In this document: positions 12,076 to 58,799 of the stretch, in pieces
Layout of the letters: every line of letters begins with the position of its first letter
Numbering within the stretch: the first letter of the stretch is position 1
Origin: a virus
IMG/VR virus record: IMGVR_UViG_3300006931_000029
Coordinates: 1-64,000 of that record
Direction: 5' to 3' (one strand)
Length of the DNA: 64,000 nucleotides
Translations under genes and position numbers: made by a program
The notes under the pieces: model-generated
What the model was told of the DNA's origin: nothing
The model's input: the letters and a program-made list of their open reading frames with translations, nothing else
Databases searched by the model: none

Positions 12076-12343
12076 TTGGGGTAAATACCCGACCGGCTAG
12101 CTCCCTGATCAAAACCTGTTGCTCCTGGACGACTCTGTTGAGCTGGGCAACCAAACTAGCATCGTTTTCAGATTGCTGAACCCAGGCGCGAAGAGACGCA
12201 TTACTGTGCCCCTGCGCTAAGCTCTCGATGGATAGCCCCGAGGACTTCGAACCTTGCTGCGTCGAGGGCGACTTGCCTTGCTTCGATTCCTCGTCTGGCA
12301 AAGATTTCAAGGGAAGAGGAGTCTCGGTGGTAGGGTTTTCCAT
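12050..12343 (-). CDS. Hypothetical protein
   Basis: 97 residues; first half low complexity (Ser, Lys, Pro, Gln), second half a helix (NDASLVAQLNRVVQEQQVLIRELAGRV) that could form a coiled coil. It overlaps the deaminase gene by 143 nt in another frame, which is unusual; a later start may be used. Confidence 0.45.
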   Translation of the reverse strand: MENPTTETPLPLKSLPDEESKQGKSPSTQQGSKSSGLSIESLAQGHSNASLRAWVQQSENDASLVAQLNRVVQEQQVLIRELAGRVFTPNAGNRNGS

Positions 12344-12704
12344 AAAGAATGAGTTTCACGCCATGGTCAATAACGGCTTCCGCACAGGCGGGACACGGAA
12401 GCGTTGTGACAGCTAACGTGCGAATCTCACCTGGAGAACAAAGACTCAGTGCGTTTCGCTCTGCGTGAATGACGTGCTGAAGTCTTCCCTCTCTATCCAT
12501 CCATTGAGCGTCGGTCAACGTTTGACCCGGTTTGAGACCGTTGTAACCCGTCGCAATGACTCTGTTCGAGTGGTTTAGCGCCACGCATCCAACCCGATGA
12601 AAAGGGTCCTCGCTACGCAACGAGGCTACCCACGCCAGACACATGGCATAGAGTTCTACCGAAATCCGGTAGTCCTTCGGAAAAGTCTGGGCGGACTGGG
12701 ACAT
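12201..12704 (-). CDS. dCMP/cytidine deaminase family enzyme
   Basis: 167 residues. The zinc-dependent deaminase signature is complete: HAERNAL (zinc His and catalytic Glu) and PCPAC (two zinc Cys). The region VGCVALNHSNRVIATGYNGLKPG matches the dCMP deaminase/ComEB type rather than cytidine deaminases. The reaction would be dCMP to dUMP, feeding dTMP or modified-pyrimidine synthesis. The nearby thymidylate-synthase-fold gene supports a role in phage nucleotide supply. Confidence 0.85.
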   Translation of the reverse strand: MSQSAQTFPKDYRISVELYAMCLAWVASLRSEDPFHRVGCVALNHSNRVIATGYNGLKPGQTLTDAQWMDREGRLQHVIHAERNALSLCSPGEIRTLAVTTLPCPACAEAVIDHGVKLILYGKPYHRDSSSLEIFARRGIEARQVALDAARFEVLGAIHRELSAGAQ

Positions 12705-13077
12705 ACTTTGGGCCGATCGTCAATGAGTTTGGTTTGCGGATGCGGATCAGTTTCCCCTCTTTGCAGAGACGAGTAGCCAAGGGCATCAGTTTCTGGCGTT
12801 GAGAACGGCTCTGGTATTTGTGTGGGCCCGCCAGCTTTCCCATCCGATTCAAAAGGTCCCAAAGCTTGATCGGCTGACTAGCGGCCACAAGCTGAAGCAT
12901 GGCGATCTCTTCTTCGACCATGTCAACGGTGTCGCACGGTTTCAGCTTGCGTTGGAATCCCCACGGATTTAGTCCCTTGCCTAGGTCGACCTCGTGCGGA
13001 AGGGGCATCGTAGGTTTTGGACCACGCCCGGAATTGCTGGTGATCCTGTCGGTGTCCGGTCTTTTTCGCTTGCTCAC
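12613..13077 (-). CDS. Hypothetical basic protein
   Basis: 154 residues, strongly basic N-terminus (MSKRKRPDTDR). The middle (LWDLLNRMGKLAGPHKYQSRSQRQKLMPLATRLCKEGKLIRIRKPN) looks like a winged-helix DNA-binding domain with a beta hairpin. It overlaps the deaminase start by 92 nt. DNA binding is inferred. Confidence 0.55.
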   Translation of the reverse strand: MSKRKRPDTDRITSNSGRGPKPTMPLPHEVDLGKGLNPWGFQRKLKPCDTVDMVEEEIAMLQLVAASQPIKLWDLLNRMGKLAGPHKYQSRSQRQKLMPLATRLCKEGKLIRIRKPNSLTIGPKYVPVRPDFSEGLPDFGRTLCHVSGVGSLVA

Positions 13078-13436
13078 CTTGGCATTTGGCTAGACGGCAG
13101 AAAGACCCGCCTTGGAGCTTGGCTAGACGGGGCTCGTGTTGGCACTCGGCTTGTTGGAGGAACGAACGGTCCTTGAACCAACTTGTGAATCATCTTGTCG
13201 GCTTGTTCTTCGGTCACCTCGACCTCAACTTCGGCAGACACGACCTTTTTGACGATCTTTTTGCGTTCCGGAATCGGCAACTTGGCGTAGATTTTGTCGA
13301 CTTCTTTCGGGTCAAATGGCATGCTGGCAGGAGGAATTCCTTCGCGTAACATACGGCGAATCCTTCTCGAGTCTTTTCCAGAAGGTTTTGGTTTTTCGGC
13401 CCCGAAGGCCATTTGCCTGAATGTTGCCTCGTTCAT
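13074..13436 (-). CDS. Hypothetical protein
   Basis: About 120 residues from the ATG at 13436, which overlaps the upstream TGA as TGATG. Contains DSRRIRRMLREGIPPASMPF and a charged helix (KKVVSAEVEVEVTEEQADKMIHKLV), then a Pro/Ser/Arg-rich tail. No family recognised. Confidence 0.55.
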   Translation of the reverse strand: MNEATFRQMAFGAEKPKPSGKDSRRIRRMLREGIPPASMPFDPKEVDKIYAKLPIPERKKIVKKVVSAEVEVEVTEEQADKMIHKLVQGPFVPPTSRVPTRAPSSQAPRRVFLPSSQMPR

Positions 13437-14971
13437 TTGATTGCAAGAAATTTGTGGAGGGACTCTGGCACTTCGTCCATCTCGTCCAACGACCACTCTC
13501 TAACCAATTTCCATGGGTTATAGGGAATGTACATGTGAACGTTTTTCATGCCGGGTTTGATGTGCGGCAGGACGTTTTTGATCCAACCTTCGAAATCGTA
13601 GTTCGGATCGTCGTAGTGACCGGACTCGCGGTTTTTCTGGATGATCTCCTCCATTGTCTTTCTGGTGGCGGTGAAATGGAAAATCTTGTGGCCTTTAAGT
13701 TCGCACTTGTTGCCAAACGTTCCTCGACACTCCTGAAACTTAGCTTCGTGGTTGACGTAGATGGACGCCTTGTCGACAGCACCTTCGATTGGAAAACCAG
13801 GAAGTCCGACCACTGGAACCATGCCTGTGTAGACACACAGCGGTTTGAAGTCGTTGATGATGTCGAGAAGTTCAGCCAGTAATCCCTTGCGCCACAGTTC
13901 GTCGCCGTCGGCGATGATGATGTGCTTGAAATCATAGCTACGAACCCACTCAAGCGCTTCGTTTCTTGCGAATGTTTCGACTTGAATTCTCGAGCGTCCT
14001 GGAGCTCGATGAGGCTTGATGTCAAAGATTCTGTTGTGAACTTCGATGTCTGCGTAAGTGTTTTTAAGGCGAAACGCGACCTCCACGACCTGATCCGATT
14101 CCTCTTTTGGGACTATCCGACCTGACCAATACTCGTTCGGAATATAGAAAAAGAAAACTCTGACGCCTTCTTCGTAGAGACGTTGACAAACCTCGAACAG
14201 ACAAAAGTCGTCCTTGGTCGCCTGAATGTAGACGGCAAGGTCTTTTGGAGTCACGACTGCGCTGTCAAACATGGGCCCGGCATCAACAGGAAATCCCATT
14301 GACTGCCGATACTTGAACAACATTTCGCCGGCTATGTAGCGTTGCTTCGACGAGTGGTTCAAATCGATGTCGTCTCGCTGCCTCTTTCCGCAGTCAGGGT
14401 GTAGGTGCTCGAACGTAATGTGAGTTGCCTGAATTACAGCATTCTCCTGGTGGGCGACAAACGTGAACTCCGTGTCGCAAAACATCGACTCGTAACCAGG
14501 ATAGAAAATGTAGCCGAATCGGTTGAACCTCTTCTTCGTTAGAATAGCTAACGTGAAGATGTCGCCATTGTAGCCATCGGCCACGTGAACCGCTTTGTCT
14601 TGCAACCACCACTCTGCTTCGGACACCGTGAGAAGCTGGTCGTCCCATGCCTGTGGAGGATCGAAGTCGTCGGCGACGGCAATAATGATGTCGCCAAGGT
14701 CCGACGCGTCTTGCACAATCTGAGCGGCTAGATTCCACCCTTTAACACAGGTGCCCGGAAGGTCCGTGACCACAGCCGTGCCAACTTCGACCTTCATGCC
14801 TACGGCAACTTTCTCGATCTCGGCGTGGACGTCGGGTCGGTTTGCGTCGGTAGTGATCGCCCAGCTAATCAGCTTTGGGCGAGACGCTCGAGTCATCCAC
14901 TTGTCTACTACGGTTTGAACGTATGCCGCTCGGACCGTCGTGTAGCAGAGAGTAAATTTTGGCAGTTGCAT
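13433..14971 (-). CDS. Tandem GT-A-type glycosyltransferase
   Basis: About 512 residues. I start at ATG 14971 (MQLPKFTLCYTTVRA), which shares a base with the stop of the upstream gene. Two GT-A-like domains are visible. The first has CVKGWNLAAQIVQ followed by IIIAVADDFDPP, a DxD-type metal-nucleotide-sugar motif. The second has ETFARNEALEWV followed by HIIIADGDELW, again an acidic nucleotide-sugar motif. Gene order next to the hydroxymethylase-like enzyme suggests glycosylation of modified DNA bases, but transfer to virion or host glycans is equally possible. Confidence 0.7.
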   Translation of the reverse strand: MQLPKFTLCYTTVRAAYVQTVVDKWMTRASRPKLISWAITTDANRPDVHAEIEKVAVGMKVEVGTAVVTDLPGTCVKGWNLAAQIVQDASDLGDIIIAVADDFDPPQAWDDQLLTVSEAEWWLQDKAVHVADGYNGDIFTLAILTKKRFNRFGYIFYPGYESMFCDTEFTFVAHQENAVIQATHITFEHLHPDCGKRQRDDIDLNHSSKQRYIAGEMLFKYRQSMGFPVDAGPMFDSAVVTPKDLAVYIQATKDDFCLFEVCQRLYEEGVRVFFFYIPNEYWSGRIVPKEESDQVVEVAFRLKNTYADIEVHNRIFDIKPHRAPGRSRIQVETFARNEALEWVRSYDFKHIIIADGDELWRKGLLAELLDIINDFKPLCVYTGMVPVVGLPGFPIEGAVDKASIYVNHEAKFQECRGTFGNKCELKGHKIFHFTATRKTMEEIIQKNRESGHYDDPNYDFEGWIKNVLPHIKPGMKNVHMYIPYNPWKLVREWSLDEMDEVPESLHKFLAIK

Positions 14972-15714
14972 CAGGAAGTCATTGCTAAAGCTTTGTCGGC
15001 ATCCGTGTCGTAGACATGAAACGAATCGGCGATGTGCGTATAGCTTCCAACCTTCAGGTTGGGATATTTCTGTCTCAGCTCCGACACCATGCGCTCGATC
15101 AAATAGCAGAACCACGGCATGTCGTAGACGAGTCCTTTGACAACGTCATTCGACCGCATGTGGACGATGAGGTGCAATCGATCTTCGCGCAACAGAAAAT
15201 TGCCGTAAACCGTGCACGTCTGATCTTTGTTGCCAACCCAGAGATGCTCGTGCTTATGGAATTTGATGATCGCCTGGCGTGTGTCGGGATCGTTGAGGAG
15301 AGACAAGCGAGCCCATTCCCATGGAGTCCTCATTACCGGATTACCGCCTTCCGACTCGTATCTCGGTTCACCACACGACTTGGAAAAGAAGATGAGATGG
15401 CCGTAGGACGAGTTTATAGTACCGTCTGGATTTCCGAGCTGGAGCCAGAATTTACTGATCTTGCCGAAGTCGTCGACTGAGGTTAATCCTTTGGCGTAAA
15501 CGTCAAATTCAGCTTTCGTGTATCGAGCAATGACCTCATTCCTTTCCGGGCTTCGCGTAACAATAGGCTCAGAGCTTGGGTTCTCTACCGTGAACTGGTA
15601 GTGAAGCTTCTCTCGGATAGCCTTACCTCGTGGGGAAGACCTGAAGTCCGCATTGGTCAGGACGTCCCGCAAGACTTCCAGATATGCTTCGCTTGTGTTA
15701 GAAAATCTGCGCAT
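14971..15714 (-). CDS. Thymidylate-synthase-fold enzyme, probable dCMP hydroxymethylase
   Basis: 247 residues. The thymidylate synthase core is clear: the catalytic Cys lies in DQTCTVYGNFLLRE, followed by the phosphate-binding RSND and the segment KGLVYDMPWF. In true thymidylate synthases the last segment reads PFN; here the Asn is Asp. In T4 dCMP hydroxymethylase the equivalent residue is also Asp and selects cytosine over uracil. I infer synthesis of 5-hydroxymethyl-dCMP (or methyl-dCMP), hence modified phage DNA. It is the first gene of an operon with the tandem glycosyltransferase. Confidence 0.75.
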   Translation of the reverse strand: MRRFSNTSEAYLEVLRDVLTNADFRSSPRGKAIREKLHYQFTVENPSSEPIVTRSPERNEVIARYTKAEFDVYAKGLTSVDDFGKISKFWLQLGNPDGTINSSYGHLIFFSKSCGEPRYESEGGNPVMRTPWEWARLSLLNDPDTRQAIIKFHKHEHLWVGNKDQTCTVYGNFLLREDRLHLIVHMRSNDVVKGLVYDMPWFCYLIERMVSELRQKYPNLKVGSYTHIADSFHVYDTDADKALAMTS

Positions 15715-15754
15715 CGTGTTCTACTTACGCTGAAGAACTACCCAACCAGAAATC

Positions 15755-16345
15755 ATGTATAGCCAAAACGACGAAGAACGGGTCATCCTTGAACTGTTCG
15801 CCAATCAACCAAAAGGGCATCTCCTAGACATCGGTGCCTTTGACGGCAAAACTTTTTCGAACAGTTTAGCTCTGATTGAGCGTGGCTGGTCGGGAGTTCT
15901 GGTTGAGCCGAATCCGACGTCGCTGTGCGCGTTGATCAATCAACACGGAAAGAATCCCGACGTCCAGATCATCGGCGGGCTTATCACGCCAGACACTGGG
16001 TTGAAGAAATTTTTCACTTGCAACGATGCTGTGTCTACGACAGACGAAAGCTTTACCGAGATTTGGAAACAGGCTGGCGTGAAGTTTCAGCCTATCTGGT
16101 TGCCTCCTGTGCACCCGGCCGCAGTGTGCTACGGCCACAAGTTCGACTTTATCACGATTGACGTCGAAGACGGCACACTTCAGATCGTTCAAGCGATGCT
16201 GGGAGCGTTCGTTCAAGCCAAGGTGGTGTGCGTTGAACACAGCGTTGGTCACCACACGATCCGTGACGAGCTGCAGGAAATCTTTTTGTCTCTCGACTAC
16301 AGACTGGTTCACACAACCGGAGAAAATTACATTTTCGCGAAGTAG
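15755..16345 (+). CDS. FkbM-family SAM-dependent methyltransferase
   Basis: 196 residues. The SAM-binding motif I is HLLDIGAFDGKTFSNS and motif II is SGVLVEPNP, followed by FDFITIDVEDGT, the usual layout of FkbM methyltransferases. These enzymes commonly O-methylate sugars. The surrounding glycosyltransferases make a sugar substrate plausible; the acceptor is unknown. Confidence 0.8.
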   Translation: MYSQNDEERVILELFANQPKGHLLDIGAFDGKTFSNSLALIERGWSGVLVEPNPTSLCALINQHGKNPDVQIIGGLITPDTGLKKFFTCNDAVSTTDESFTEIWKQAGVKFQPIWLPPVHPAAVCYGHKFDFITIDVEDGTLQIVQAMLGAFVQAKVVCVEHSVGHHTIRDELQEIFLSLDYRLVHTTGENYIFAK

Positions 16346-16358
16346 TAGATAGCTTCGC

Positions 16359-16646
16359 ATGAGAACCGATTCCGAGACTGACCGTCTCGTTCGCGACAAA
16401 ATTCGTATGTCGTGGTTGAACCTACACGCTCGAGAGGTGTTGATTCAACCGCTTAACGGCTCTTGCGTCGCACTGACGTTCAGAGACCTTCGGTTTGAAG
16501 GCACAGACCTTAAGGACTGTGTGGATCAGGCGCTAGAAAAGTTGGATGGAACTGAGCAATCGCGTTTCGGAGCGCGTCACGATACAGTTTCCCATCCGCC
16601 GCAAACCGTCGTCCCCACTGGGGATGCGGGACAATCGCAGGCTTAA
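16359..16646 (+). CDS. Hypothetical protein
   Basis: 95 residues, 13 nt after the methyltransferase. The first 60 look protein-like (MRTDSETDRLVRDKIRMSW); the last 45 are antisense to the kinase gene and may not be well conserved. No family recognised. Confidence 0.45.
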   Translation: MRTDSETDRLVRDKIRMSWLNLHAREVLIQPLNGSCVALTFRDLRFEGTDLKDCVDQALEKLDGTEQSRFGARHDTVSHPPQTVVPTGDAGQSQA

Positions 16647-17586
16647 GTCCGAACGACTTGACTCTGTCAGCCGCGCTCTGACCCAGAGCGACAACCTGGA
16701 TTTTGCCCATGAGAGGACCTTGCTCAACCATCAGTTGAGCTAGCGTGTCGTGTTCTCGATCGTTGACGTTAGTCCAAATCGCAACTGTTTCGTCGAATAG
16801 AATGCGATGAAGTTGCTCTGTGAGCCACAGAGACGAATGAGCGTATTCGAAAAACGGCCACGTCCATCGGTGCTTCGGTTTAGGAGCATCGCCAGTAATC
16901 AAGATACTAGTTCTCGGTCTGATCATACCAAGAAAGTTGTCGTTGTCTAACGCGCCAAGCAGTTGAGTCGATTGGAGTTCAACTAGTCGTTTCTCGACTA
17001 AGTCACAAGTTAATTCAGTTCCGTTAGGACGGATAGTGTGTTCGATTACGTCTTGGCGGCTTCGACGATTTGCCAACTCAGCCATGTCGTCGAGATAGGT
17101 TTTGCGAGGGACCTCTGGAGGAGGGTTGTCAAAGTTGGGATTCCGACCAAGAGTTTTCAGATAGAGGTCGTTGACGTCTGCGTTTCTCACCGCATCGACA
17201 TCGGTTCGGTTAGCTCGAGTCTTTCGATACCGCTCAATGAGTACTTCCCGATCCCGCTCAACAGAGACGATTTGAACGGCACACGCTTTTAGCAGGACGC
17301 GATCGACCATTCGACCTTGATGCGGCCAAGGGGTTCCATTCCGATAGATTTGAGCGTAGATGACTTCCGACATCCAAAGGCGATCGAGAATCACCAGCCG
17401 AGTTTTGGCTAGTTCCAACGCACGGCGGAGTACGGCGGCATGGTAGGCGAAGATGTTTCTTGTAAACCTGTAGGTCTGGTGTAGAATAACAGCGTCGTGG
17501 CGCTTCTTAAGCTCTTCGGCGAGCGTTGTTTTACCGGTGGCATTCGCGCCATCGATGCAAATAACACCAGTCAATTTTCTTTCCAT
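16510..17586 (-). CDS. P-loop (deoxy)nucleotide kinase fused to a uracil-DNA-glycosylase-like domain
   Basis: 358 residues. The N-terminal 200 form a nucleotide kinase: Walker A IDGANATGKTTLAEEL, LVILDRLWMSEVIY as the Asp-Arg motif, and a basic lid. The C-terminal 130 resemble the UDG superfamily (families 4/5): SILITGDAPKPKHRW corresponds to the GEAPG motif, then VVALGQSAADRV and VPHPQWG for the HPS motif. The fusion is unusual. The kinase could phosphorylate hydroxymethylated dCMP, as T4 gp1 does, and the glycosylase-like domain may bind or excise bases. Specificities are inferred from context. Confidence 0.7.
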   Translation of the reverse strand: MERKLTGVICIDGANATGKTTLAEELKKRHDAVILHQTYRFTRNIFAYHAAVLRRALELAKTRLVILDRLWMSEVIYAQIYRNGTPWPHQGRMVDRVLLKACAVQIVSVERDREVLIERYRKTRANRTDVDAVRNADVNDLYLKTLGRNPNFDNPPPEVPRKTYLDDMAELANRRSRQDVIEHTIRPNGTELTCDLVEKRLVELQSTQLLGALDNDNFLGMIRPRTSILITGDAPKPKHRWTWPFFEYAHSSLWLTEQLHRILFDETVAIWTNVNDREHDTLAQLMVEQGPLMGKIQVVALGQSAADRVKSFGLKPAIVPHPQWGRRFAADGKLYRDALRNAIAQFHPTFLAPDPHSP

Positions 17587-17664
17587 TGGAGGTTAAGAAC
17601 AGGCAAGGTTGGCCCAAATCTAGGTAGAGGACACTCGACCAGAGTTCAGTGGTTCTTATCCTCG

Positions 17665-18375
17665 ATGAAGGATGCAATTGTGAGTTTTGCCCGTAAGGGC
17701 CGCGAAAACTATCCGAGCGCGTTTCCGCGCCTTATTTCCAGCGCGCGTGCTGCCGGGTTCACCGGTGATTTCATCATGTGTGCTCCAGAACTACCCGGTA
17801 CCGAGATTATCGAAGGGGTGCTGAATCAGCCAGACCTTTCCATTCCGTCGCACCAGGAGGTGCCGTATGGCTTCAAACCAGCGTTGATGGGTATAGCTAG
17901 GGACCGAGGTTACCAGCGGGTTCTTTGGTGCGACTCGACGATCGATTTTGTGAGAGATGTCCCCGGCATTTTCGACACAATCACATGGAAAGGACTGATG
18001 TTGTTTGACAACCCCGGTTGTCCGGAGAATCACTGGACAAGCGACGATTGCCTGGCTAAGATGGGTTGCTCCTACGAAGAATCGTGCACCATCACTCAAG
18101 CAATGGCGTGTGCGATGGGATTTGATTTTGAGAATCCAGTCGCTAGCGGAATCTTCAACGAATGGATGGAATATGGCAAGGACGGCGTCTGTTTCCAAGG
18201 GAAGTCAGGATCAAGCCGCCCCGACTTCCGAGCTCACCGGCACGACCAAAGTGTCATCAGCTACCTCGCCCACAAGCACAAAATCGAGAAGATTCCGTAC
18301 GGTGTCTTGTCGTACTGGAACGACAGGGCCCAATTCAATTCTCACCTGTGCAACCGAGGTATCGGCCAACCATAA
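17665..18375 (+). CDS. Probable glycosyltransferase
   Basis: 236 residues from the ATG at 17665 (MKDAIVSFARKGRENYPSAF); an upstream start would overlap the divergent kinase. RGYQRVLWCDSTIDF carries a D-x-T/D element in a GT-A-like setting, and the pattern YPSAFPRLISSARAAGFTGDF matches proteins that transfer sugars to glycans. Located three nt before a GT9-like gene, probably the same operon. Confidence 0.55.
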   Translation: MKDAIVSFARKGRENYPSAFPRLISSARAAGFTGDFIMCAPELPGTEIIEGVLNQPDLSIPSHQEVPYGFKPALMGIARDRGYQRVLWCDSTIDFVRDVPGIFDTITWKGLMLFDNPGCPENHWTSDDCLAKMGCSYEESCTITQAMACAMGFDFENPVASGIFNEWMEYGKDGVCFQGKSGSSRPDFRAHRHDQSVISYLAHKHKIEKIPYGVLSYWNDRAQFNSHLCNRGIGQP

Positions 18376-18377
18376 CC

Positions 18378-19643
18378 ATGTCCGTTTCAGACGTCACCAT
18401 CAAGCTTCCAAAACCCGAGTGGGTCATCGTATCGTTCAAAGAGCCCGTCCTGTGGGATCGTTCTGAAAATGAGACGTGGATGTTCAATCCGAACCGTCGC
18501 TATATCATCAACAAAGGGCAGGTTGAGAGCGTAGCCGAGAAGATCGACACGATCTCGGAGCTCAAAGGAAGCCGTCTGCACAATCCGCTGCTGGCGAATC
18601 GAAACTTAGCGAACTCCAACATCCTCGTCGAGCGACATCGTGATCGCGGATTCGGTGACTATCTCTTCCTCACCGGTCCGATGAACTACATCAAGCATGT
18701 CTCTGGTGGGAGTGCGAACATCGACGTTTACGCGTTAGCGGATAAGGGAAAGATTCTGGACCACCATCCTGCTCTTCGTTATTCATCGACGCTGTCCGGT
18801 CCAATTGAGTACGACAGCCTGCATCTTTATCACTATCACTGGTTCATCGATACGGTTACGGAGTACGACTCTGAGCCGGACCAGTTGAACGTCTATGACG
18901 CGCTTTACAAGCAGCTCGGCATCGAACACCAGTCTGTCGATCCTCGGTTCAAGCGTCCATCGATGACGTTGTCCAACCAAGACTACAAAGACCTGGACTC
19001 TCTTTACTACTTCATCTACCTGCAGAAGAAGATTGATCTTCGGCGCGTCGGCTATTATGTGGTCGCTCCAACGGCAATGGCGAATCTCCGGTCAGCCAAC
19101 TACCAGTTGTGGCTGACGACGATCATGAACATGGCGAAAGCCCGTCCAGTTGTCGTGCTAGGGTATAGCAACAACTCTCGAGCACCGGCGACCGACATGG
19201 CCTACGGTACGTTCATGCAGCATCTCGACAATCTTGGACCGAACGTAATCAATCTCACAGGCGCAACTCCAATCCGAGTCGCATGCGGTTTGATGTCTCG
19301 AGCCGTCTGTGCCGTGACTCTTGATTCCGGCCTGCTTTACGTGGCGCAGGCGTTCAGAGTTCCTGCCATCTCCATCTGGGGACCTGTGTCGCCGTGGTCT
19401 CGTATCGGCTATGACAAGGATTACATGGAGCTTGCCATCTGGAACAAGGAATCGTGTCGGTTCGCCAGTTGCCAAGCTCATGCCGATTTCCCTCGAAACA
19501 AGTGTCCTCGCGGCGAGAGTCAAGTTGTCTGCGAGCCGATTGGCACCGTAACGCCGGATCAGATCGTTGACAAGATCAGAAAGGTTGAGGCGTCGTTGAA
19601 CGGCACCAAGCCTGTCGAGCCTGATCCGCGGCGTCAAGCGTGA
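18378..19643 (+). CDS. GT9/heptosyltransferase-like glycosyltransferase
   Basis: About 421 residues from ATG 18378 (MSVSDVTIKLPKPEW). The C-terminal half has the GT9 donor-binding signature: LDSGLLYVAQAFRVPAISIWGPVSPWSRIGY, and the acceptor half has RDRGFGDYLFLTGPMNY, like the GxGD step of heptosyltransferases. A cluster FASCQAHADFPRNKCPRG follows the active site, as in the second GT9 protein of this window at 40.0-41.1 kb. Both probably transfer heptose or a similar sugar. Confidence 0.7.
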   Translation: MSVSDVTIKLPKPEWVIVSFKEPVLWDRSENETWMFNPNRRYIINKGQVESVAEKIDTISELKGSRLHNPLLANRNLANSNILVERHRDRGFGDYLFLTGPMNYIKHVSGGSANIDVYALADKGKILDHHPALRYSSTLSGPIEYDSLHLYHYHWFIDTVTEYDSEPDQLNVYDALYKQLGIEHQSVDPRFKRPSMTLSNQDYKDLDSLYYFIYLQKKIDLRRVGYYVVAPTAMANLRSANYQLWLTTIMNMAKARPVVVLGYSNNSRAPATDMAYGTFMQHLDNLGPNVINLTGATPIRVACGLMSRAVCAVTLDSGLLYVAQAFRVPAISIWGPVSPWSRIGYDKDYMELAIWNKESCRFASCQAHADFPRNKCPRGESQVVCEPIGTVTPDQIVDKIRKVEASLNGTKPVEPDPRRQA

Positions 19644-25004: not shown

Positions 25005-25358
25005 GTGGCAGACATTATTCGAAATCCGGACATCACCGAGGAGATGACCCAGACTTTGGCAGGTCGGGCGTGGTTTGTCTTTTCGATTAACCCAGGCGAC
25101 CGCACCGGAGTCGAGGGAATCGAAGGAAACGACTACGACGTTGCCGGAGAGGGAGTTGACGTCATGGACGAAATTCTGGCCAAGATGGCGAACTATCCGA
25201 GAGGACGTTGGCAGCTAGACTACGGCGGGATCATTCAAGACGTTCGCGAAATCGGCTCAGACAACCTTCGAGACCTGAAAACGGCCTTCATCAACATCTA
25301 CGGCACGGTGAATCGGCCAGATGTCTGGGGAAAACCAGACCAGTGGTGGTTAGGATAA
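25005..25358 (+). CDS. Hypothetical protein
   Basis: 117 residues from a GTG start; divergent from the 2H gene. Contains AGRAWFVFSINPGDRTGVEG and VMDEILAKMANYPRGRWQLDYGG. No family recognised. Ends nine nt into the convergent neighbour. Confidence 0.55.
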   Translation: MADIIRNPDITEEMTQTLAGRAWFVFSINPGDRTGVEGIEGNDYDVAGEGVDVMDEILAKMANYPRGRWQLDYGGIIQDVREIGSDNLRDLKTAFINIYGTVNRPDVWGKPDQWWLG

Positions 25359-25781
25359 GTCTCTAATTCGGCGAACCAAGGCGCTCGTTGACGGACCGTG
25401 TTCCGGCCGTGCCAGAAACGCTAGTTCGATTCCGTACCGCTCGATGACTTCCATCTCAACGGGCGGCAAAGAATTTTGCCACTCTGACCCTTTGACGTGG
25501 ATGTGTTTCCAACCCGGCGGCCGACGTTTGGCTACTGACTCAAGCCAAAGATAAGTTTCCTCCATCAGTTCGACACCGTCGACACACGACAGGTTTTCCA
25601 GCAGCTCTTTGCGTTCGGCTTCGACTACGATAGGGCGACCTGGCTTGTAGGCGGCCACGCTTTTGTCGTTGTTGAGCCCGACGAGAAGAAGAGTGCCAAG
25701 CGCCTTGGCTTCTCTCAAACCTCTGACGTGACCAACATGAAGAAGGTCGAAACAACCGTTTGTTGTGACTAGAATGCTCAC
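25350..25781 (-). CDS. HldE/RfaE2-like cytidylyltransferase-fold enzyme
   Basis: 143 residues, the size of a single nucleotidyltransferase domain. NGCFDLLHVGHVRGLREAKALG contains the HxGH motif and LLVGLNNDKSVAAYKPGRPIV matches the ADP-heptose synthase C-terminal domain (HldE/RfaE2), with ...R..LL..LSCVDGVEL after it. The reaction would be NTP plus sugar-1-phosphate to NDP-sugar, likely ADP-heptose. With the two GT9 proteins it may form a phage heptose or sugar-donor route. Confidence 0.8.
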   Translation of the reverse strand: MSILVTTNGCFDLLHVGHVRGLREAKALGTLLLVGLNNDKSVAAYKPGRPIVVEAERKELLENLSCVDGVELMEETYLWLESVAKRRPPGWKHIHVKGSEWQNSLPPVEMEVIERYGIELAFLARPEHGPSTSALVRRIRDLS

Positions 25782-26787: not shown

Positions 26788-27527
26788 CACTTCACCGTTG
26801 CGACCGGCGTGAGAGTGACGGTGTTGGAGACAACCTCGAAGATTTGCTCCTGAGCAACGACGCTCGGGAACTTGGTCCAACGCTCGGCGTGGAAGTTGGT
26901 GAGAGGAAGGACCTTCTTCGTAACGGCGAGAGGCGTTTTGGTGCCCTCGGGCAGCATTTTCTTCGCGACCAACTCGGCGGTCACCTTTTCAATGGCCTTC
27001 GCGTACGCGTCGAACACCTTCTGGTTGAACTCGCCATTCTCGCCGGTTTGAAAGATTTTGCTGTTGAAACCAGCCGTGACGGTTTCCTGCATGAAGTTGT
27101 TGATCGACAGGCGGTCGGCTTTGGCCTTGTCGGCATTTGTCGGACGCAGCAGGTCTTCGAAGAGACTGTCGGCTGTGCTTGCATCGCACGCGGAATAGCG
27201 ATCCTGGAACGTGAGGCGTACGACTTCGCCGTCGCCAGCCATTGCGTCCTTGTCTTCGCCGGCCTCATCTTTGCCCTGATCTTGGAGCAACTGGATCGAC
27301 GTGGCGGGATTGGTCGGGTTCGCGATATTGAACGTGAAGAGCTCGGCGATACCCTTTTGCAGTAACTTGGCTCGTTCTTCTTTCTGGATCGCCTCTTGAC
27401 GTTTCAACTCCGCGGTAGCCTCGATGAACCGAGCGACCGAACGGCCTGAGATTTTGACGACCGGCGTATCTCCGCTCTTGGTAACCGGAGCCGTTTCAGC
27501 GATAGTGGATAAGCGTTTGAGTGCCAT
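26787..27527 (-). CDS. Hypothetical protein
   Basis: 246 residues from ATG 27527 (MALKRLSTIAETAPVT). Long helices rich in Lys and Glu (FIEATAELKRQEAIQKEERAKLLQKGIAELF), then an alpha/beta region. No family recognised. The TTTTTTGTTTAC element lies 34 nt upstream. Confidence 0.6.
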   Translation of the reverse strand: MALKRLSTIAETAPVTKSGDTPVVKISGRSVARFIEATAELKRQEAIQKEERAKLLQKGIAELFTFNIANPTNPATSIQLLQDQGKDEAGEDKDAMAGDGEVVRLTFQDRYSACDASTADSLFEDLLRPTNADKAKADRLSINNFMQETVTAGFNSKIFQTGENGEFNQKVFDAYAKAIEKVTAELVAKKMLPEGTKTPLAVTKKVLPLTNFHAERWTKFPSVVAQEQIFEVVSNTVTLTPVATVK

Positions 27528-40004: not shown

Positions 40005-41129
40005 TTAGAGGAATCTTGATGCCGCTTGGCACACTTCCTCTGGCGTGATTGCACCCAATACCGCGCACTGCTTCCTCACTTCTGTCTCAGGAAGAGGTGG
40101 ACAGTACTTTGGAAAATCGTGCATGGTAGCAAAGCACGGAGAGAACTGACACGCGTTTTGGTGCCAGATCGGCAGGTGGTTTTTGTAGTAAGCAGCTCGG
40201 TTTTTCGGCCGCATCAATCCCCAAAAGCCGATCGACGGCACGTTCAAACAGCCGGCAACGTGAAGCATCATGCTATCGGGACTGACGGACAGGCTCGCCC
40301 TTGCCGCAGTCGCCCAGAGAATCCGAAGTTCAGGGAAGGTCATGACTCGAATGTTTGGCGCAGTCAACTCCTTCGCCAACTTCACCGAGTTTTCCTCTGA
40401 GAAACAATCGTAAATCGCGATCCAAACCGTGTCTTTGAACCGCTCAGCGAGACTCTGCAAAATAGAAACAGACATCTCTGGAAGAAGCGATCGAGTGGGA
40501 CTTGTTGCGGCGAGCTGGTAGATGGCGAACTTCCTGACGTCGCCGATGATTGCGCTTGCCTTGTCCATTTCGCTTTGCGTGAATACAGGTGCGACCTTCT
40601 TCAACGCAGGATCGATCGAATCAGGATCGATGCCGAACCGAATAAGTTCAGCGTCAACAGGGTGTCTTTGATCGGGATGCTCGTCAAAGTTCACCACTGA
40701 GTCCATCAAGATCATGTTTTTCCACATCTCGAGCTGACCCTGAGGAATCGGCATGGTGACGATCGACTTCACCCACGGGAAATTCCACCAGCACATTTCA
40801 AGACCTGGCTCGCAAGCGATGTGAACCTCGAACCCCATCTTGTGCAGAATCTTCGCGCATGGCCACGCCATGATTTGATCGCCGAACCCGCCTGATCCGT
40901 TGAAGTAAAGGACCCGGTCCCCTGGCTTCATGGCATGAACGTGAAACGCAGGAACCCGGTTGGTGTAATCCGTGACCTTGAACAGGAATTTCTGAACGTT
41001 GTCGTAGATTTGCCGGAAATGGGCGTTGCTCAAAACGTATGGCTGGTAGGCCTGAAAGTTCAAGCGGTATTCGCCTGACGACCGCTTGATGCCGAATGAA
41101 ATGGGTTCTTGGAGAGTAAGAAGCTTCAT
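40005..41129 (-). CDS. GT9/heptosyltransferase-like glycosyltransferase
   Basis: 374 residues. GDRVLYFNGSGGFGDQIMAWP is the GxGD motif of GT9 acceptor domains; SPDSMMLHVAGCLNVPSIGFWGLMRP is the donor-side D..xxHvA..lgvP.v.lfG motif. A C-terminal Cys segment (NACQFSPCFATMHDFPKYCPP) parallels the other GT9 protein at 18.4-19.6 kb, so the two are probably paralogues. Substrate is likely ADP-heptose or a related NDP-sugar; acceptor unknown. Confidence 0.75.
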   Translation of the reverse strand: MKLLTLQEPISFGIKRSSGEYRLNFQAYQPYVLSNAHFRQIYDNVQKFLFKVTDYTNRVPAFHVHAMKPGDRVLYFNGSGGFGDQIMAWPCAKILHKMGFEVHIACEPGLEMCWWNFPWVKSIVTMPIPQGQLEMWKNMILMDSVVNFDEHPDQRHPVDAELIRFGIDPDSIDPALKKVAPVFTQSEMDKASAIIGDVRKFAIYQLAATSPTRSLLPEMSVSILQSLAERFKDTVWIAIYDCFSEENSVKLAKELTAPNIRVMTFPELRILWATAARASLSVSPDSMMLHVAGCLNVPSIGFWGLMRPKNRAAYYKNHLPIWHQNACQFSPCFATMHDFPKYCPPLPETEVRKQCAVLGAITPEEVCQAASRFL

Positions 41130-54364: not shown

Positions 54365-54441
54365 TGGTGGACCCAGTGGGATTTGCACCCACGATCAAAG
54401 AATTATGAGTTCTCTGCTTTGGACTGCTAAGCTACAGGTCC
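54365..54441 (-). tRNA. tRNA-Met(CAT)
   Basis: 77 nt, CCA encoded. Anticodon loop CTCATAA. D-loop contains CAG in place of GG; T-loop TGCAAAT. Could be Met or Ile (if C34 is modified). Confidence 0.8.
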
Positions 54442-54447
54442 AACAAG

Positions 54448-54804
54448 ATGATTTCTAGCCAAAGAAAAATTGTCAAAGAAAAGTTGATATTTCATCGCGG
54501 TCATAGATGCGAAGGTTGCCAGGGCACTCAATGGCGAGGAAAACCAATCCCTTTGGAACTTCATCATGAGACTGACAGTGACGAAGAAAAGGACCTTCAG
54601 CTTCTGTGTCCTAACTGTCACGCTCAAACCCCGAACTATCGAGGGCGAAACAAGAAAGCTGGAAAGATTTGGAGCAATCTCTGCTCGTGCGGTAATCGAA
54701 AACACGTGTGTTCCCCGAGTTGCAGAAGTTGTGGCGCGAAAAGAAGATGGAATGGTGCCCTTGGAGGGAGTTGCACCCTCACGACATGCGTCACTAAGGT
54801 TTAA
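54448..54804 (+). CDS. HNH endonuclease inserted in the tRNA array
   Basis: 118 residues. HNH features: RCEGCQGTQW, LELHHETDSDEEKDLQLLCP and NCHAQ, then a second zinc knuckle CSCGNRKHVCSPSCRSCG. It lies on the opposite strand to all tRNAs, starts seven nt from tRNA-Met and its last 52 nt are antisense to tRNA-Leu(TAA), so its C-terminus is encoded by tRNA sequence. Probably a homing-type insertion. Confidence 0.8.
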   Translation: MISSQRKIVKEKLIFHRGHRCEGCQGTQWRGKPIPLELHHETDSDEEKDLQLLCPNCHAQTPNYRGRNKKAGKIWSNLCSCGNRKHVCSPSCRSCGAKRRWNGALGGSCTLTTCVTKV

Positions 54805-54836
54805 GCAAAGCGCGTCTCCTTTTCCGCCACAAGGGC
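54753..54836 (-). tRNA. tRNA-Leu(TAA)
   Basis: 84 nt, class II. Acceptor GCCCTTG/CAAGGGC, anticodon loop CTTAAAC; the anticodon stem has mismatches. T-loop TGCAACT. Overlapped antisense by the HNH gene. Confidence 0.65.
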
Positions 54837-54840
54837 AAGT

Positions 54841-54926
54841 TGGTGCCGGCGACAGGAATCGCACCTGCATGGCCCGAAGACCGCTGGATTTTGAGTTCAG
54901 TGTGTATCCTATTCCACCACGCCGGC
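54841..54926 (-). tRNA. tRNA-Leu(CAA)
   Basis: 86 nt, class II, perfect acceptor GCCGGCG/CGCCGGC. Anticodon CAA. D-loop AATAGGATA, T-loop TGCGATT. Confidence 0.75.
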
Positions 54927-54931
54927 AAAAT

Positions 54932-55008
54932 TGGTGCCCTCGGCGGGACTCGAACCCGCAACCTCGAGGTTAGAAAGCTCTTGCTCTAGTCCATTGAGCT
55001 ACGAGGAC
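54932..55008 (-). tRNA. tRNA-Arg(TCT)
   Basis: 77 nt. Canonical type: D-loop AATGGACTA with GG and T-loop TTCGAGT. Anticodon loop TTTCTAA. Confidence 0.8.
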
Positions 55009-55013
55009 AAAAT

Positions 55014-55090
55014 TGGCGCCTCAGACAGGACTCGCACCTGCAACCTGCAGTTTAGGAAACCGCCGCTCTATCTAGTTGAGCTACTGAGAC
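55014..55090 (-). tRNA. tRNA-Arg(CCT)
   Basis: 77 nt. Anticodon loop TTCCTAA. D-loop AACTAGATA differs from a canonical AACTGGATA only by G18 to A; T-loop TGCGAGT. Confidence 0.85.
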
Positions 55091-55094
55091 AAAT

Positions 55095-55180
55095 TGGTGC
55101 CCGCGACAGGAATCGCACCTGCATGGTTTTTCAACCACTAATTTCTAAGACTAGCGTGTCTACTGTTCCACCACGCGGGC
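55095..55180 (-). tRNA. tRNA-Leu(TAG)
   Basis: 86 nt, class II, acceptor GCCCGCG/CGCGGGC, anticodon loop CTTAGAA, D-loop with CAG, T-loop TGCGATT. Confidence 0.8.
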
Positions 55181-55185
55181 AAAGA

Positions 55186-55248
55186 TGGAGGGAGCGTCCG
55201 TGCTCGGCACCCTGAGCGCTCAGCCACAACCTCAAGCTGTGGACTCCC
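55186..55248 (-). ncRNA. 63-nt tRNA-like RNA without D-arm, Ser(TGA)-like loop
   Basis: Occupies a regular slot in the array and ends in CCA. Stem GGGAG/CTCCC, an arm CCACAG/TTGTGG with loop CTTGAGG (anticodon-like TGA), CTGAG/CTCAG, and GTGC/GCAC. No D-arm and no normal T-arm. Either a degraded tRNA-Ser or a specialised tRNA-like RNA. Confidence 0.5.
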
Positions 55249-55259
55249 ATTTTCAAAAT

Positions 55260-55333
55260 TGGCTCCCGACCAAGGATTCGCACCTTGGCAAAACGAGTCA
55301 GAGTCGTTTGTGCTACTGTTACACCAGTCGGGA
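55260..55333 (-). tRNA. tRNA-Gln(CTG)
   Basis: 74 nt. Anticodon loop CTCTGAC, acceptor TCCCGAC/GTCGGGA, D-loop AACAGTA, T-loop TGCGAAT. Confidence 0.85.
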
Positions 55334-55334
55334 A

Positions 55335-55429
55335 TGGCGGAGGTGAGCAGGTTCGCACTGCGCCGAGCTTTACCCCGGGCCATGTTTAGCAAACATGTGG
55401 GACTCCTAGTTGTCCACCTTTCTACCTCC
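55335..55429 (-). tRNA. tRNA-Ser(GCT)
   Basis: 95 nt, class II with long variable arm. Anticodon arm CATGT TTGCTAA ACATG. T-loop TGCGAAC, D-loop AACTAGGAG. Confidence 0.85.
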
Positions 55430-55433
55430 AAAA

Positions 55434-55508
55434 TGGTGCCCGCACCGGGAATCGCACCCGGCTCTCCGCCTTGAGAGGGCGGCGAACTAACTGATATTCG
55501 ATGCGGGC
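55434..55508 (-). tRNA. tRNA-Glu(CTC)
   Basis: 75 nt. Anticodon arm CCGCC CTCTCAA GGCGG. Acceptor GCCCGCA/TGCGGGC. D-loop ATCAGTTA, T-loop TGCGATT. Confidence 0.85.
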
Positions 55509-55513
55509 AAAAA

Positions 55514-55598
55514 TGGTCGGCATGACAGGAATCGCACCTGCACGGATTTTATCCAACGCCTTCTGAGGACGCCGTGTCTACTGTTCCACCACATGCCG
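55514..55598 (-). tRNA. tRNA-Leu(CAG)
   Basis: 85 nt, class II. Anticodon loop CTCAGAA. Acceptor CGGCATG/CATGCCG. T-loop TGCGATT. Confidence 0.8.
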
Positions 55599-55603
55599 AA
55601 AAA

Positions 55604-55679
55604 TGGTCCTCGCTGTAGGATTCGCACCCACAACTTCCTCCGTGTGAAAGAGGCACTCTAACTGTTGAGTTAAGCGAGG
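55604..55679 (-). tRNA. tRNA-Val(CAC)
   Basis: 76 nt. Anticodon arm CCTCT TTCACAC GGAGG. D-loop AACAGTTA, T-loop TGCGAAT. Confidence 0.8.
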
Positions 55680-55683
55680 AAAA

Positions 55684-55875
55684 TTATTCGACGGCTTCGC
55701 AGATGTCGCGAATGAGGGCAAAGTATGCGATGCATTCACCACCTAGTTTCGTCCCTGGAAGAGCATACTGTCCTGAGCATTGGCGCTCGAGGATAGTCCC
55801 CTTTGGGTAAGCAATGCCGACCTTCAAGTCTAGGTAGTCTTCAGTCAGTTGGACCGTTGCTGGTTTTTGAGTCAT
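55684..55875 (-). CDS. Small hypothetical protein in the tRNA array
   Basis: 63 residues from ATG 55875 (MTQKPATVQLTEDYLDLKVG). SH3-like beta pattern (GIAYPKGTILERQCSGQYAL). No family recognised. A pseudoknotted RNA structure ends 17 nt before its start, so its translation may be regulated by it. Confidence 0.5.
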   Translation of the reverse strand: MTQKPATVQLTEDYLDLKVGIAYPKGTILERQCSGQYALPGTKLGGECIAYFALIRDICEAVE

Positions 55876-55892
55876 CACTTTTAGAATAAATC

Positions 55893-55974
55893 GTGCAGAA
55901 AGCGAAGGGCTGTTCGTTGGTTAGTCGCCGTTGAACAGGTAGCATCGTTGGACCCGGACTAACGGGTTCTGCAC
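55893..55974 (-). ncRNA. Pseudoknotted RNA element upstream of the 63-residue gene
   Basis: Closed by a perfect 8-bp stem GTGCAGAA/TTCTGCAC (55893-55900 with 55967-55974). Inside, CTGTTC (55910-55915) pairs with GAACAG (55933-55938) and GTTAGTC (55920-55926) with GACTAAC (55957-55963). The two inner helices cross, forming an H-type pseudoknot. No CCA or anticodon arm. Candidate riboswitch, regulatory leader or free-standing RNA. Confidence 0.6.
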
Positions 55975-55978
55975 AAAG

Positions 55979-56071
55979 TGGCGGAGAGGTGCAGGTTCGC
56001 ACTGCGCACGATTAAACGTGTCCGAGTTTTCGAGGCTCGTGGGACTCCTGATTGTCCTCCTTACTCTCTCC
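55979..56071 (-). tRNA. tRNA-Ser(CGA)
   Basis: 93 nt, class II. Anticodon loop CTCGAAA, T-loop TGCGAAC, D-loop with CAG. Confidence 0.8.
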
Positions 56072-56072
56072 G

Positions 56073-56162
56073 TGGCGGAAGGTAAAGGAGTTGCACCCTA
56101 GCCGGTTTCCCGACTGATCCGCTTTCCAAGCGGTCCCCACTCTACAGCAGGTCCTACCTTCC
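56073..56162 (-). tRNA. tRNA-Ser(GGA)
   Basis: 90 nt, class II. Anticodon loop TTGGAAA, T-loop TGCAACT. Confidence 0.8.
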
Positions 56163-56166
56163 AAAG

Positions 56167-56244
56167 TGGTGCACGCGGAGGGATTTGAACCCCCAACCCT
56201 TCGTTCCGAAGACGAATGCTCTGGTCCAATTGAGCTACGCGTGC
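56167..56244 (-). tRNA. tRNA-Arg(TCG)
   Basis: 78 nt, canonical type: D-loop AATTGGACCA, T-loop TTCAAAT. Anticodon arm TTCGT CTTCGGA ACGAA. Confidence 0.85.
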
Positions 56245-56245
56245 A

Positions 56246-56333
56246 TGGCGGAAGGTGTAGGATTCAAACCCACGGCCGGTTTCCCGACTCCGAGGTTCAA
56301 GCTCGGTGCAATAATTCGCTCTGCCAACCTTCC
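56246..56333 (-). tRNA. tRNA-Ser(TGA)
   Basis: 88 nt, class II. Anticodon arm CCGAG CTTGAAC CTCGG. T-loop is TTTGAAT, with T in place of the invariant C56, a third loop type in this array. Confidence 0.8.
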
Positions 56334-56337
56334 AAGT

Positions 56338-56525
56338 TTTCGAACCAGTGTAGCCTGGATTCTGTTTTATCCGCACATTTCTCTAAGCCGCTACCACGAC
56401 GTTTGAACGGGAAGCACTACCCTGACGTCTTAATTTGCGTTGCACCTACCGAGGTCCGCGAGCGTTAACTCTCCCTCGTGCTGCTTTGGTGTCCTAGCTT
56501 CCTCAGGCCGATACACTTTCTCGAC
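56338..56525 (-). ncRNA. rnpB: Miniature RNase P RNA
   Basis: About 188 nt (E. coli: 377). Minus strand order matches bacterial RNase P RNA: CCTGAGGAAGCTAGGAC (5' P4 region, consensus GAGGAAAGTCC), GAGAGTTAACGCTC hairpin, GGTGCAACGCAAATTAAGACG (consensus GTGCAACAGAnAnnAnACCGCC), TAGAGAAATGTGCGGATAA (consensus TAGATGAATGAC) and ACAGAATCCAGGCTACAC (consensus ACAGAACCCGGCTTAC). AGTGTA/TACACT gives a short P1-like closure. The 5' P4 strand deviates from consensus. Lies inside the tRNA array, overlapping by about 23 nt the end of the response-regulator gene. Confidence 0.8.
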
Positions 56526-56961
56526 CCGCGTGCAGTCCTGTATTCGAAGATGGTTCTTGCGCCAATTTGATGCTAAAAACATCAAAAATGCTGCCGATTG
56601 ATTCAGGCGAAAAGTCTGACGGTTTTCGAATCATGACGGCAAAATCGATCTTGCGCACGGCATCTATCAATTTTTCGTCAATATATCCGGACACAATGCT
56701 GACCGGAGTCATTATTTTGTTGGCTCTCATTTCCCGAAAAACGTCTAAGCCGCTACCATCTGGTAGCTTCATGTCCAACAGCACCACGTGAAACTCTCGC
56801 TGCGCCAGTTGATTGATCGCTTCCTGGCACGTCTTAGCCCAGAACACGTGGCATCTGTAACTCTTTGAGGCGTTAATCAACAACTCCGCCAGTAGCTCAT
56901 CGTCCTCAACGAGAAGCACGTCTTTTATGAGATTCTTAGCGTATTCCGCAAGAGTTTTCAT
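56503..56961 (-). CDS. Single-domain response-regulator receiver protein
   Basis: About 152 residues from ATG 56961 (MKTLAEYAKNLIKDVLLVEDD). All CheY-type residues are present: VEDDE (acidic pair), VVLLDMKLPDG (phosphoacceptor Asp), SIVSG (Ser/Thr position) and MIRKPSD (Lys). There is no output domain. Its last codons lie in the RNase P RNA. A phage receiver protein may tap host phosphorelay signalling. Confidence 0.85.
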   Translation of the reverse strand: MKTLAEYAKNLIKDVLLVEDDELLAELLINASKSYRCHVFWAKTCQEAINQLAQREFHVVLLDMKLPDGSGLDVFREMRANKIMTPVSIVSGYIDEKLIDAVRKIDFAVMIRKPSDFSPESIGSIFDVFSIKLAQEPSSNTGLHAGRESVSA

Positions 56962-57006
56962 TAAAACAAATATAGACCATGGAACGACGAACCGTTCCCT
57001 GAGAAG

Positions 57007-57080
57007 TGGCACCCGCGCAAGGATTCGCACCTTGGCAAAGTGAGTCAAAGTCACTTGTGCTACTGTTACACCACACGGGT
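57007..57080 (-). tRNA. tRNA-Gln(TTG)
   Basis: 74 nt. Anticodon arm AGTGA CTTTGAC TCACT. Acceptor ACCCGTG/CGCGGGT. T-loop TGCGAAT. Confidence 0.85.
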
Positions 57081-57084
57081 AAAA

Positions 57085-57274
57085 ACCCCGTCGACGGTCC
57101 GCGATCCATCTGGCAGGCAGGCGCATTACGACTCAGCGACGATCAATCGCCTACCGTGACTCGGTCGACTACGAATCTGCGTCCCCTGAACGGAGACAAA
57201 AGCTTTGCCGGCGGCGATCGCATCCGCAGCTTGGGTTCCTCGAGCTCGCCCAAGACTTGCTACTCATCGGCAAA
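57085..57274 (-). ncRNA. Structured gene-free stretch in the tRNA array
   Basis: 190 nt. The right part (57204-57274) is closed by TTTGCCG/CGGCAAA and contains GCGG/CCGC and CTTGGG/CCCAAG arms. The left part has GTCTCC(GTTCA)GGGGAC, AGGCG/CGCCT and a CCGTCGACGG palindrome before a T-run. No CCA, no anticodon arm, no reading frame. Possibly one or two small RNAs. Confidence 0.45.
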
Positions 57275-57275
57275 A

Positions 57276-57351
57276 TGGTCCTCGCGGCAGGATTCGCACC
57301 TGCGACCTCTTCCATGTCAAGGAAGCGCGCTAACTGCTGTGCTACGCGAGG
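57276..57351 (-). tRNA. tRNA-Val(GAC)
   Basis: 76 nt. Anticodon arm CTTCC TTGACAT GGAAG. D-loop AGCAGTTA, T-loop TGCGAAT. Confidence 0.85.
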
Positions 57352-57352
57352 A

Positions 57353-57429
57353 TGGCTCCGGCAGAAGGGTTCGCACCTTCATCTTCTCGGTTAACAGCCG
57401 AGCGCTCTACTAAGTTGAGCTACACCGAA
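57353..57429 (-). tRNA. tRNA-Asn(GTT), variant type
   Basis: 77 nt. Anticodon arm CTCGG CTGTTAA CCGAG. D-loop AACTTAGTA, T-loop TGCGAAC. A second Asn(GTT) at 58530 has canonical loops. Confidence 0.8.
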
Positions 57430-57435
57430 ACAAAA

Positions 57436-57512
57436 TGGTCCTCTCAGCCGGAGTCGCACCGACAACCTCGTCCTTCGCAGAGACGCGCTCTATCTAGTTG
57501 AGCTATGAGAGG
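57436..57512 (-). tRNA. tRNA-Arg(GCG)
   Basis: 77 nt. Anticodon arm CGTCT CTGCGAA GGACG. Bacteria normally use ACG (inosine) for these codons, so GCG is unusual. D-loop AACTAGATA, T-loop TGCGACT. Confidence 0.8.
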
Positions 57513-57516
57513 AAAT

Positions 57517-57593
57517 TGGGGCGGCTAACGGGATTCGCACCCGCGGTCCTCTGATTCACAATCAGATGCTTTTACTGCTAAGCTATAGCCGCC
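57517..57593 (-). tRNA. tRNA-His(GTG)
   Basis: 77 nt including the extra 5' G(-1) opposite C73, the His identity element. Anticodon arm TCTGA TTGTGAA TCAGA. T-loop TGCGAAT. Confidence 0.85.
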
Positions 57594-57599
57594 ATAAAT

Positions 57600-57684
57600 T
57601 GGTGCGGATAGGGAGAATCGCACTCCCATGGCTGTCAACCGTTACGTTCTCAACGTAGTGTGTCTACTGTTCCACCATATCCGC
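57600..57684 (-). tRNA. tRNA-Leu(GAG)
   Basis: 85 nt, class II. Anticodon loop TTGAGAA, acceptor GCGGATA/TATCCGC, T-loop TGCGATT. Confidence 0.8.
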
Positions 57685-57689
57685 AAGAG

Positions 57690-57848: not shown

Positions 57849-57854
57849 ACAAAA

Positions 57855-57930: not shown

Positions 57931-57934
57931 AAAG

Positions 57935-58159: not shown

Positions 58160-58179
58160 TCCACTACCAGAACGCAAAA

Positions 58180-58255: not shown

Positions 58256-58257
58256 AA

Positions 58258-58798: not shown

Positions 58799-58799
58799 A

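Follow-up and report, generated by a model that had tools for sequence, protein, structure and literature searches.

The first 64 kb of the virus record IMGVR_UViG_3300006931_000029 (224,954 bases), referred to here as the window, carry between positions 12201 and 19643 a gene cluster that combines a deoxycytidine monophosphate (dCMP) deaminase, a thymidylate synthase (TS) homologue, a nucleotide kinase, an FkbM-type methyltransferase and glycosyltransferase-like proteins. A sequence-only reading of this DNA had named these genes, and all of them are present at the locus as judged by Pfam and PHROG profile matches and by reading of the sequence. Three of the genes are predicted to act in the synthesis of 5-hydroxymethylcytosine (hmC):

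12201-12704, minus strand: dCMP deaminase homologue with an HAE...PCxxC zinc motif (PF00383, 4.6e-16; PHROG dCMP deaminase, 2.3e-32; 77% identical in contig L002)
14971-15714, minus strand: predicted dCMP 5-hydroxymethylase of the TS family (PF00303, 5e-12; PHROG thymidylate synthase, 7e-32), with C167 as nucleophile
16510-17586, minus strand: P-loop protein resembling deoxynucleoside monophosphate (dNMP) kinases, predicted kinase of hydroxymethyl-dCMP (hm-dCMP) (weak Pfam matches; PHROG thymidylate kinase, 1.3e-9)

Gene order across the whole block is shared with an independent phage contig (L002), with 60-78% amino acid identity between cluster proteins; no nucleotide-level relatives of the 20 kb around the cluster were found among the phage records searched. 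Comparison of the window with L002 gave pS values of 0.72-0.90, i.e., synonymous sites at or near saturation, and pN values of 0.15-0.27, and all cluster genes are therefore under purifying selection.

The TS-family enzyme was aligned with T4 gp42, SPO1 gp29, a canonical TS from a related record (G003), the enzymes of Xp15, phage G and AXL3, and environmental homologues, and residues were read at T4 positions with published roles (PMC6400193) as well as in MilA (PMC5175136). Its closest solved relatives are the CMP hydroxymethylase MilA (3e-21) and T4 dCMP hydroxymethylase (2e-13), with any thymidylate synthase reaching only 1e-4. The enzyme is identical to T4 at 13 of 16 functional positions (E60, W82, S94, Y96, R123, D145, C148, T149, S169, D171, D179, H216, and Y218 in T4 numbering); the changed positions are I81 to F, V85 to L (L93), and R124 to Q, the last of which is also found in the SPO1 enzyme and in most relatives. 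The catalytic pair of nucleophilic Cys and general Glu is retained, C167 and E69 aligning with T4 C148 and E60. D198 corresponds to T4 D179, which acts in cytosine recognition (TS Asn177) and is Asn in canonical TS and in SPO1; D164 corresponds to T4 D145, which acts in water addition and is Leu in canonical TS; and T168 corresponds to T4 T149, which is His in canonical TS. At T4 positions 145, 149, and 179, canonical TS hence reads L, H, N, and the SPO1 hydroxymethylase, which acts on deoxyuridine monophosphate (dUMP), reads D, N, N. Across the panel, an Asp at position 179 marks enzymes that act on cytosine as opposed to uracil, and one at position 145 marks hydroxymethylases as opposed to TS; the window enzyme carries the two. 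In the MetaGPA study, positions 147 and 177 of E. coli TS were the best separators of cytosine-modified from unmodified contigs (PMC8670742). The features tied to hydroxylation, namely Asp at position 145, no Trp at position 85, and no TS C-terminal tail (PMC6400193), are all found here, as D164, as L93, and as an end of the protein 12 residues past its last active-site Tyr (Y235, T4 Y218). The replacement of PFN by VYD that had been noted earlier is correct (read as GLVYDMPW), and the proposal that the Asp points to a dCMP hydroxymethylase of the T4 type is strongly supported by this active-site alignment together with the conserved operon described below. With regard to the sugar, the deoxyribose-selectivity residues are S188 (T4 Ser169) and R146 (T4 Arg123) where MilA has Ala and Lys, and this residue set predicts dCMP rather than CMP as the substrate. 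No second TS was found in the 225-kb record; a weak ThyX match at 26832-27032 was rejected, as the protein that contains it does not resemble ThyX, and there is no credible ThyX elsewhere in the record.

Homologues of the kinase were gathered from 33 viral loci, one of which is L002. In 30 of the 32 others the kinase is followed downstream by an Asp-type TS and next by a dCMP deaminase, and the remaining two contigs stop right after the kinase; the operon is thus kept in 30 of 30 loci where the contig continues. Three loci (L021, L022, and L038) have a MazG-like pyrophosphohydrolase directly upstream of this operon. In a search of ten related records, the kinase turned up only where a window-type TS is present (G000, G010, and G023), and records without this TS were also without the kinase. 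Named phages with a full-length kinase homologue are AXL3, PW916, and one spring-water phage, each of which has TS and deaminase. In the Stenotrophomonas phage AXL3 (operon at L057:7977-9750), the TS homologue has Asp145, Thr149, and Asp179 in T4 numbering, and of 37 restriction enzymes tried on AXL3 DNA, only two, TasI and Tru1I, both of which have A/T-only sites, were reported to cut it (PMC7504290); these three residues would account for the failure of enzymes whose sites contain G/C.

An AlphaFold model of the kinase built from 26 sequences (pLDDT 84) matched mainly nucleotide kinases in the PDB, including thymidylate kinases, with no match for its C-terminal domain; it also matched an uncultured-phage protein over nearly its full length, followed by phage G gp315. 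The C-terminal domain is conserved and carries an HPSYAKRF-like motif, but no credible PDB sequence match to it was found. PF03167, the uracil-DNA glycosylase (UDG) superfamily, gave marginal matches in 7 of 24 members, the best at 1e-3; where match coordinates were available, they spanned only about 40 residues. Given the missing PDB fold match and the marginal PF03167 result, the label of a UDG-like domain stays tentative and is offered as a lead only.

The active-site match, the conserved operon of kinase, Asp-type TS, and deaminase, and the presence of the same operon in the restriction-resistant AXL3 make hmC in the DNA of this phage likely, and we consider it probable that the phage pathway replaces cytosine with hmC, as in T4. 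From these genes and residues we infer the following reactions. Cys167 of the TS-family enzyme would attack C6 of dCMP, with Asp198 recognising and protonating the cytosine; one carbon would be taken from methylene-tetrahydrofolate, and a water activated by Asp164 would quench the methylene to yield hm-dCMP. The P-loop kinase would phosphorylate hm-dCMP towards the triphosphate (hm-dCTP) for incorporation by the phage PolA-family polymerase. The deaminase would convert surplus dCMP to dUMP for synthesis of thymidine monophosphate (dTMP) and thereby drain unmodified dCMP, and the modified DNA would be expected to resist host nucleases that require cytosine. Some points weigh against this account. 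Profiles for dUTPase_2 (PF08761), MazG (PF03819), T4 gp56, and the nucleoside triphosphate pyrophosphohydrolase (NTP-PPase) of related operons detected no dCTP-destroying enzyme in the genome, and AXL3-type operons carry an NTP-PPase directly upstream, unlike the window. The virus record may also be incomplete, and the choice of hm-dCMP as the substrate of the kinase follows from gene linkage only. Since no dCTPase was found, replacement of cytosine may be partial or may rely on another enzyme; a dCTPase is not required for making hm-dCMP.

The remaining genes of the cluster are:

12613-13008, minus strand: small conserved protein, function unassigned (66% identical in L002; start uncertain, 12613-13077 in the open reading frame (ORF) list), with no family match in Pfam or PHROG profile searches
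13074-13436, minus strand: small conserved protein, function unassigned (53% identical in L002)
13433-14971, minus strand: tandem glycosyltransferase-like protein of 512 amino acids (GT-A1, about 14252-14971; GT-A2, about 13433-14251), probably outside the hmC pathway
15755-16345, plus strand: FkbM-type methyltransferase, divergent from the TS gene (PF05050, 4.7e-8; 65% identical in L002)
17665-18375, plus strand: GT-A-like protein of 236 amino acids with WCDS and HRHDQS motifs (71% identical in L002; likeness to GT-A by eye only)
18378-19643, plus strand: GT9 or heptosyltransferase-like glycosyltransferase (PF01075, 9e-7; TIGR02195, 9e-9; PDB 1psw, 6e-5 by profile)

The sequence-only reading had taken the 512-residue protein for a tandem GT-A enzyme that, with further glycosyltransferases, glycosylates hmC. 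Its tandem nature is confirmed by relatives in which each half is encoded by its own gene (L017), and its assignment to GT-A comes from weak profile matches (PHROG glycosyltransferase phrog_14945, 5e-9, for the N-terminal half; PF13641, 1e-3, below the cut-off, for the C-terminal half) and DDFD/DGDE motifs; PDB profile searches with the protein and its two halves gave nothing credible. The proposed role on hmC, by contrast, is unsupported. Eleven further large-phage records contain GT-A1, GT-A2, and GT9 together, mostly near a head-tail adaptor gene. In 10 of them no TS-family gene was found; these include records of 203, 199, and 211 kb, in which a missing stretch could still hide one. The remaining record, G023, has three TS genes, two of them Asp-type, none of which adjoins the triad. 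Occurrence of the triad does not, therefore, follow that of the hydroxymethylase, and its conservation in records without TS indicates that it is probably independent of hmC. In G002, G003, and G023 an Asp-type TS of a second kind adjoins a NodU-type carbamoyltransferase instead, and in G002 and G003 the triad lies elsewhere.

The tandem GT-A and GT9 genes thus probably serve another target, e.g., the virion. That their acceptor is a virion protein or host surface polymer, and that they are mere neighbours of the hmC genes, is an account that we consider reasonably probable: besides the independence from TS and the location near a head-tail adaptor gene or, in the window, L002, and G023, near a baseplate gene, GT9 resembles lipopolysaccharide heptosyltransferases, and the window also encodes an HldE-like nucleotidyltransferase (25350-25781, minus strand; PHROG, 4e-10; PF01467, 5e-13) and a second GT9 paralogue (40005-41129, minus strand; about 71 bits to 18378-19643). 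A survey of jumbo phages ties sets of such nucleotidyltransferases and glycosyltransferases to surface polysaccharide modification (PMC7824862), and the HldE-like and second GT9 genes may form a donor/transferase set of the ADP-heptose type. Against this account, the hmC genes lie inside the triad in both the window phage and L002.

Glycosylation of hmC in phage DNA by the tandem GT-A enzyme and GT9, in the manner of the T4 alpha- and beta-glucosyltransferases, appears unlikely. The tandem gene does lie on the TS strand, and its ATG (start at 14971, MQLPKF..., rather than at 15115 as in the ORF list) overlaps the TS stop codon as TGATG; a carbamoyltransferase that might cap hmC instead was not found in the window genome (PF02543 negative), and the kinase, deaminase, and TS cluster of phage G contains an annotated alpha-glucosyltransferase. 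Against these stand the distribution of the triad, the arrangement in G002 and G003, and a search of the window genome in which no homologue of T4 beta-glucosyltransferase or of phage G gp313 was found.

Better candidates than the triad for decorating hmC further are the 236-residue GT-A-like protein and the FkbM enzyme, either or both of which may do so. They have so far been seen only beside hmC genes (in the window and L002), the sole exception for FkbM among triad loci without TS being one 28% match (L078). The 236-residue gene starts at 17665, rather than at 17497 as in the ORF list, and ends just before GT9 (start at 18378); no Pfam, PHROG, or NCBIfam match to its product was found, and a PDB profile search gave nothing credible. 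L091, a shorter related contig, has GT9 directly after the kinase, and the 236-residue gene is therefore accessory there. A specific version, in which hmC bears a new decoration with a sugar added by the 236-residue enzyme and an O-methyl group by FkbM, and in which the UDG-like domain of the kinase filters pyrimidine nucleotides, is doubtful.

Other activities of the TS-family enzyme itself fare less well. That the enzyme methylates dCMP at position 5, so that the DNA would contain 5-methylcytosine like that of Xanthomonas phage XP12, is quite unlikely: the Asn-to-Asp change alone makes canonical TS a dCMP methylase (as cited in PMC8670742), but Asp164 in place of TS Leu143, the lack of Trp at T4 V85, and the lack of the TS tail are tied to hydroxylation and not to hydride transfer. 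A dUMP hydroxymethylase leading to hydroxymethyluracil DNA, as in SPO1, is very unlikely; similarity to enzymes of this type is detectable and Asp at T4 position 145 is common to SPO1 gp29, yet gp29 has Asn at positions 179 and 149, in contrast to the Asp and Thr of the window enzyme. An ordinary operon for thymidylate synthesis (dCMP to dUMP to dTMP to the diphosphate), as the authors of the AXL3 study read theirs (PMC7504290) and as the presence of a dCMP deaminase and a thymidylate-kinase-like gene might suggest, is hardly credible, given an active site that departs from TS at three diagnostic positions, the missing tail, the refractory AXL3 DNA, and the ThyX of AXL3, which makes the TS homologue of that phage dispensable for dTMP synthesis.

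Synthesis of hmC as the preferred reading adds a phage lineage with a 225-kb genome to the cytosine-replacing viruses; the pathway itself is of a known kind and its novelty modest. Environmental phages widely carry the operon signature of two-domain kinase, Asp-type TS, and dCMP deaminase, which is easily annotated as thymidylate synthesis, and neighbouring glycosyltransferases should not be read as DNA-glycosylating without a co-occurrence test. Among related records, the 230-kb phage G023 has a canonical, a window-type Asp, and a second Asp-type TS homologue (L104:8968-9798, L105:7540-8511, and L099); the window-type enzyme and a divergent kinase homologue are about 3.5 kb apart, and the second Asp type adjoins the carbamoyltransferase, possibly giving two cytosine modifications in one virus. 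In G003, a carbamoyltransferase, an Asp-type TS, and a nucleotide kinase are adjacent (L062:775-3332 and L054:1342-2774), a candidate cluster for 5-carbamoyloxymethylcytosine.

Elsewhere in the window, 36 tRNA genes of many specificities are followed by a tmRNA gene (54365-62830, minus strand). The same genome encodes a GT2-methyltransferase fusion (L005:12999-14300), a Fringe/galactosyltransferase-like protein (L009:3834-4517), a 2OG-Fe(II) oxygenase (L004:13209-13892), and an adenylosuccinate synthetase homologue (L010:14092-15423; record 211092-212423, minus strand; PF00709, 3.5e-67). The PHROG name of the last suggests PurZ, but a 2-aminoadenine function was rejected, as the PurA active-site Asp is kept (GDQGKG) and the gene is therefore PurA-like.

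Compared with known systems, the T4 pathway (gp42, gp1, gp56, cd, and the alpha/beta-glucosyltransferases) shares Asp145, Asp179, and Thr149 with the window, along with a deaminase and a dNMP-kinase-like gene; it differs in that no gp56-type dCTPase or beta-glucosyltransferase homologue was detected in the window genome, that the window kinase has an extra C-terminal domain, and that the window enzyme ends 12 residues after the T4 Y218 position. The Xp15 and MetaGPA clusters pair a carbamoyltransferase with TS, and an enzyme from this type of pairing was shown to make 5-carbamoyloxymethylcytosine (PMC8670742); they share with the window an Asp-type TS (Asp177 and an altered residue 147), a kinase-like protein, and a deaminase side by side, but the window genome is without the carbamoyltransferase. 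MilA, the closest solved structure by sequence, has the Asp for cytosine in common with the window enzyme and differs in having Ala176 and Lys133 in place of Ser188 and Arg146. In Bacillus phage G (gp313-gp319), the kinase gp315, which is a fold-search match to the window kinase, the deaminase gp317, and the Asp-type TS gp319 are clustered as in the window; the annotated alpha-glucosyltransferase of that cluster, gp313, is without a relative in the window genome. In AXL3 and Pseudoxanthomonas phage PW916, a single operon holds a full-length kinase homologue, Asp-type TS, and dCMP deaminase, and these genes are shared with the window; AXL3 has in addition an NTP-PPase and a methyltransferase upstream as well as ThyX, and the window genes are interrupted by FkbM, the tandem GT-A gene, and small genes.

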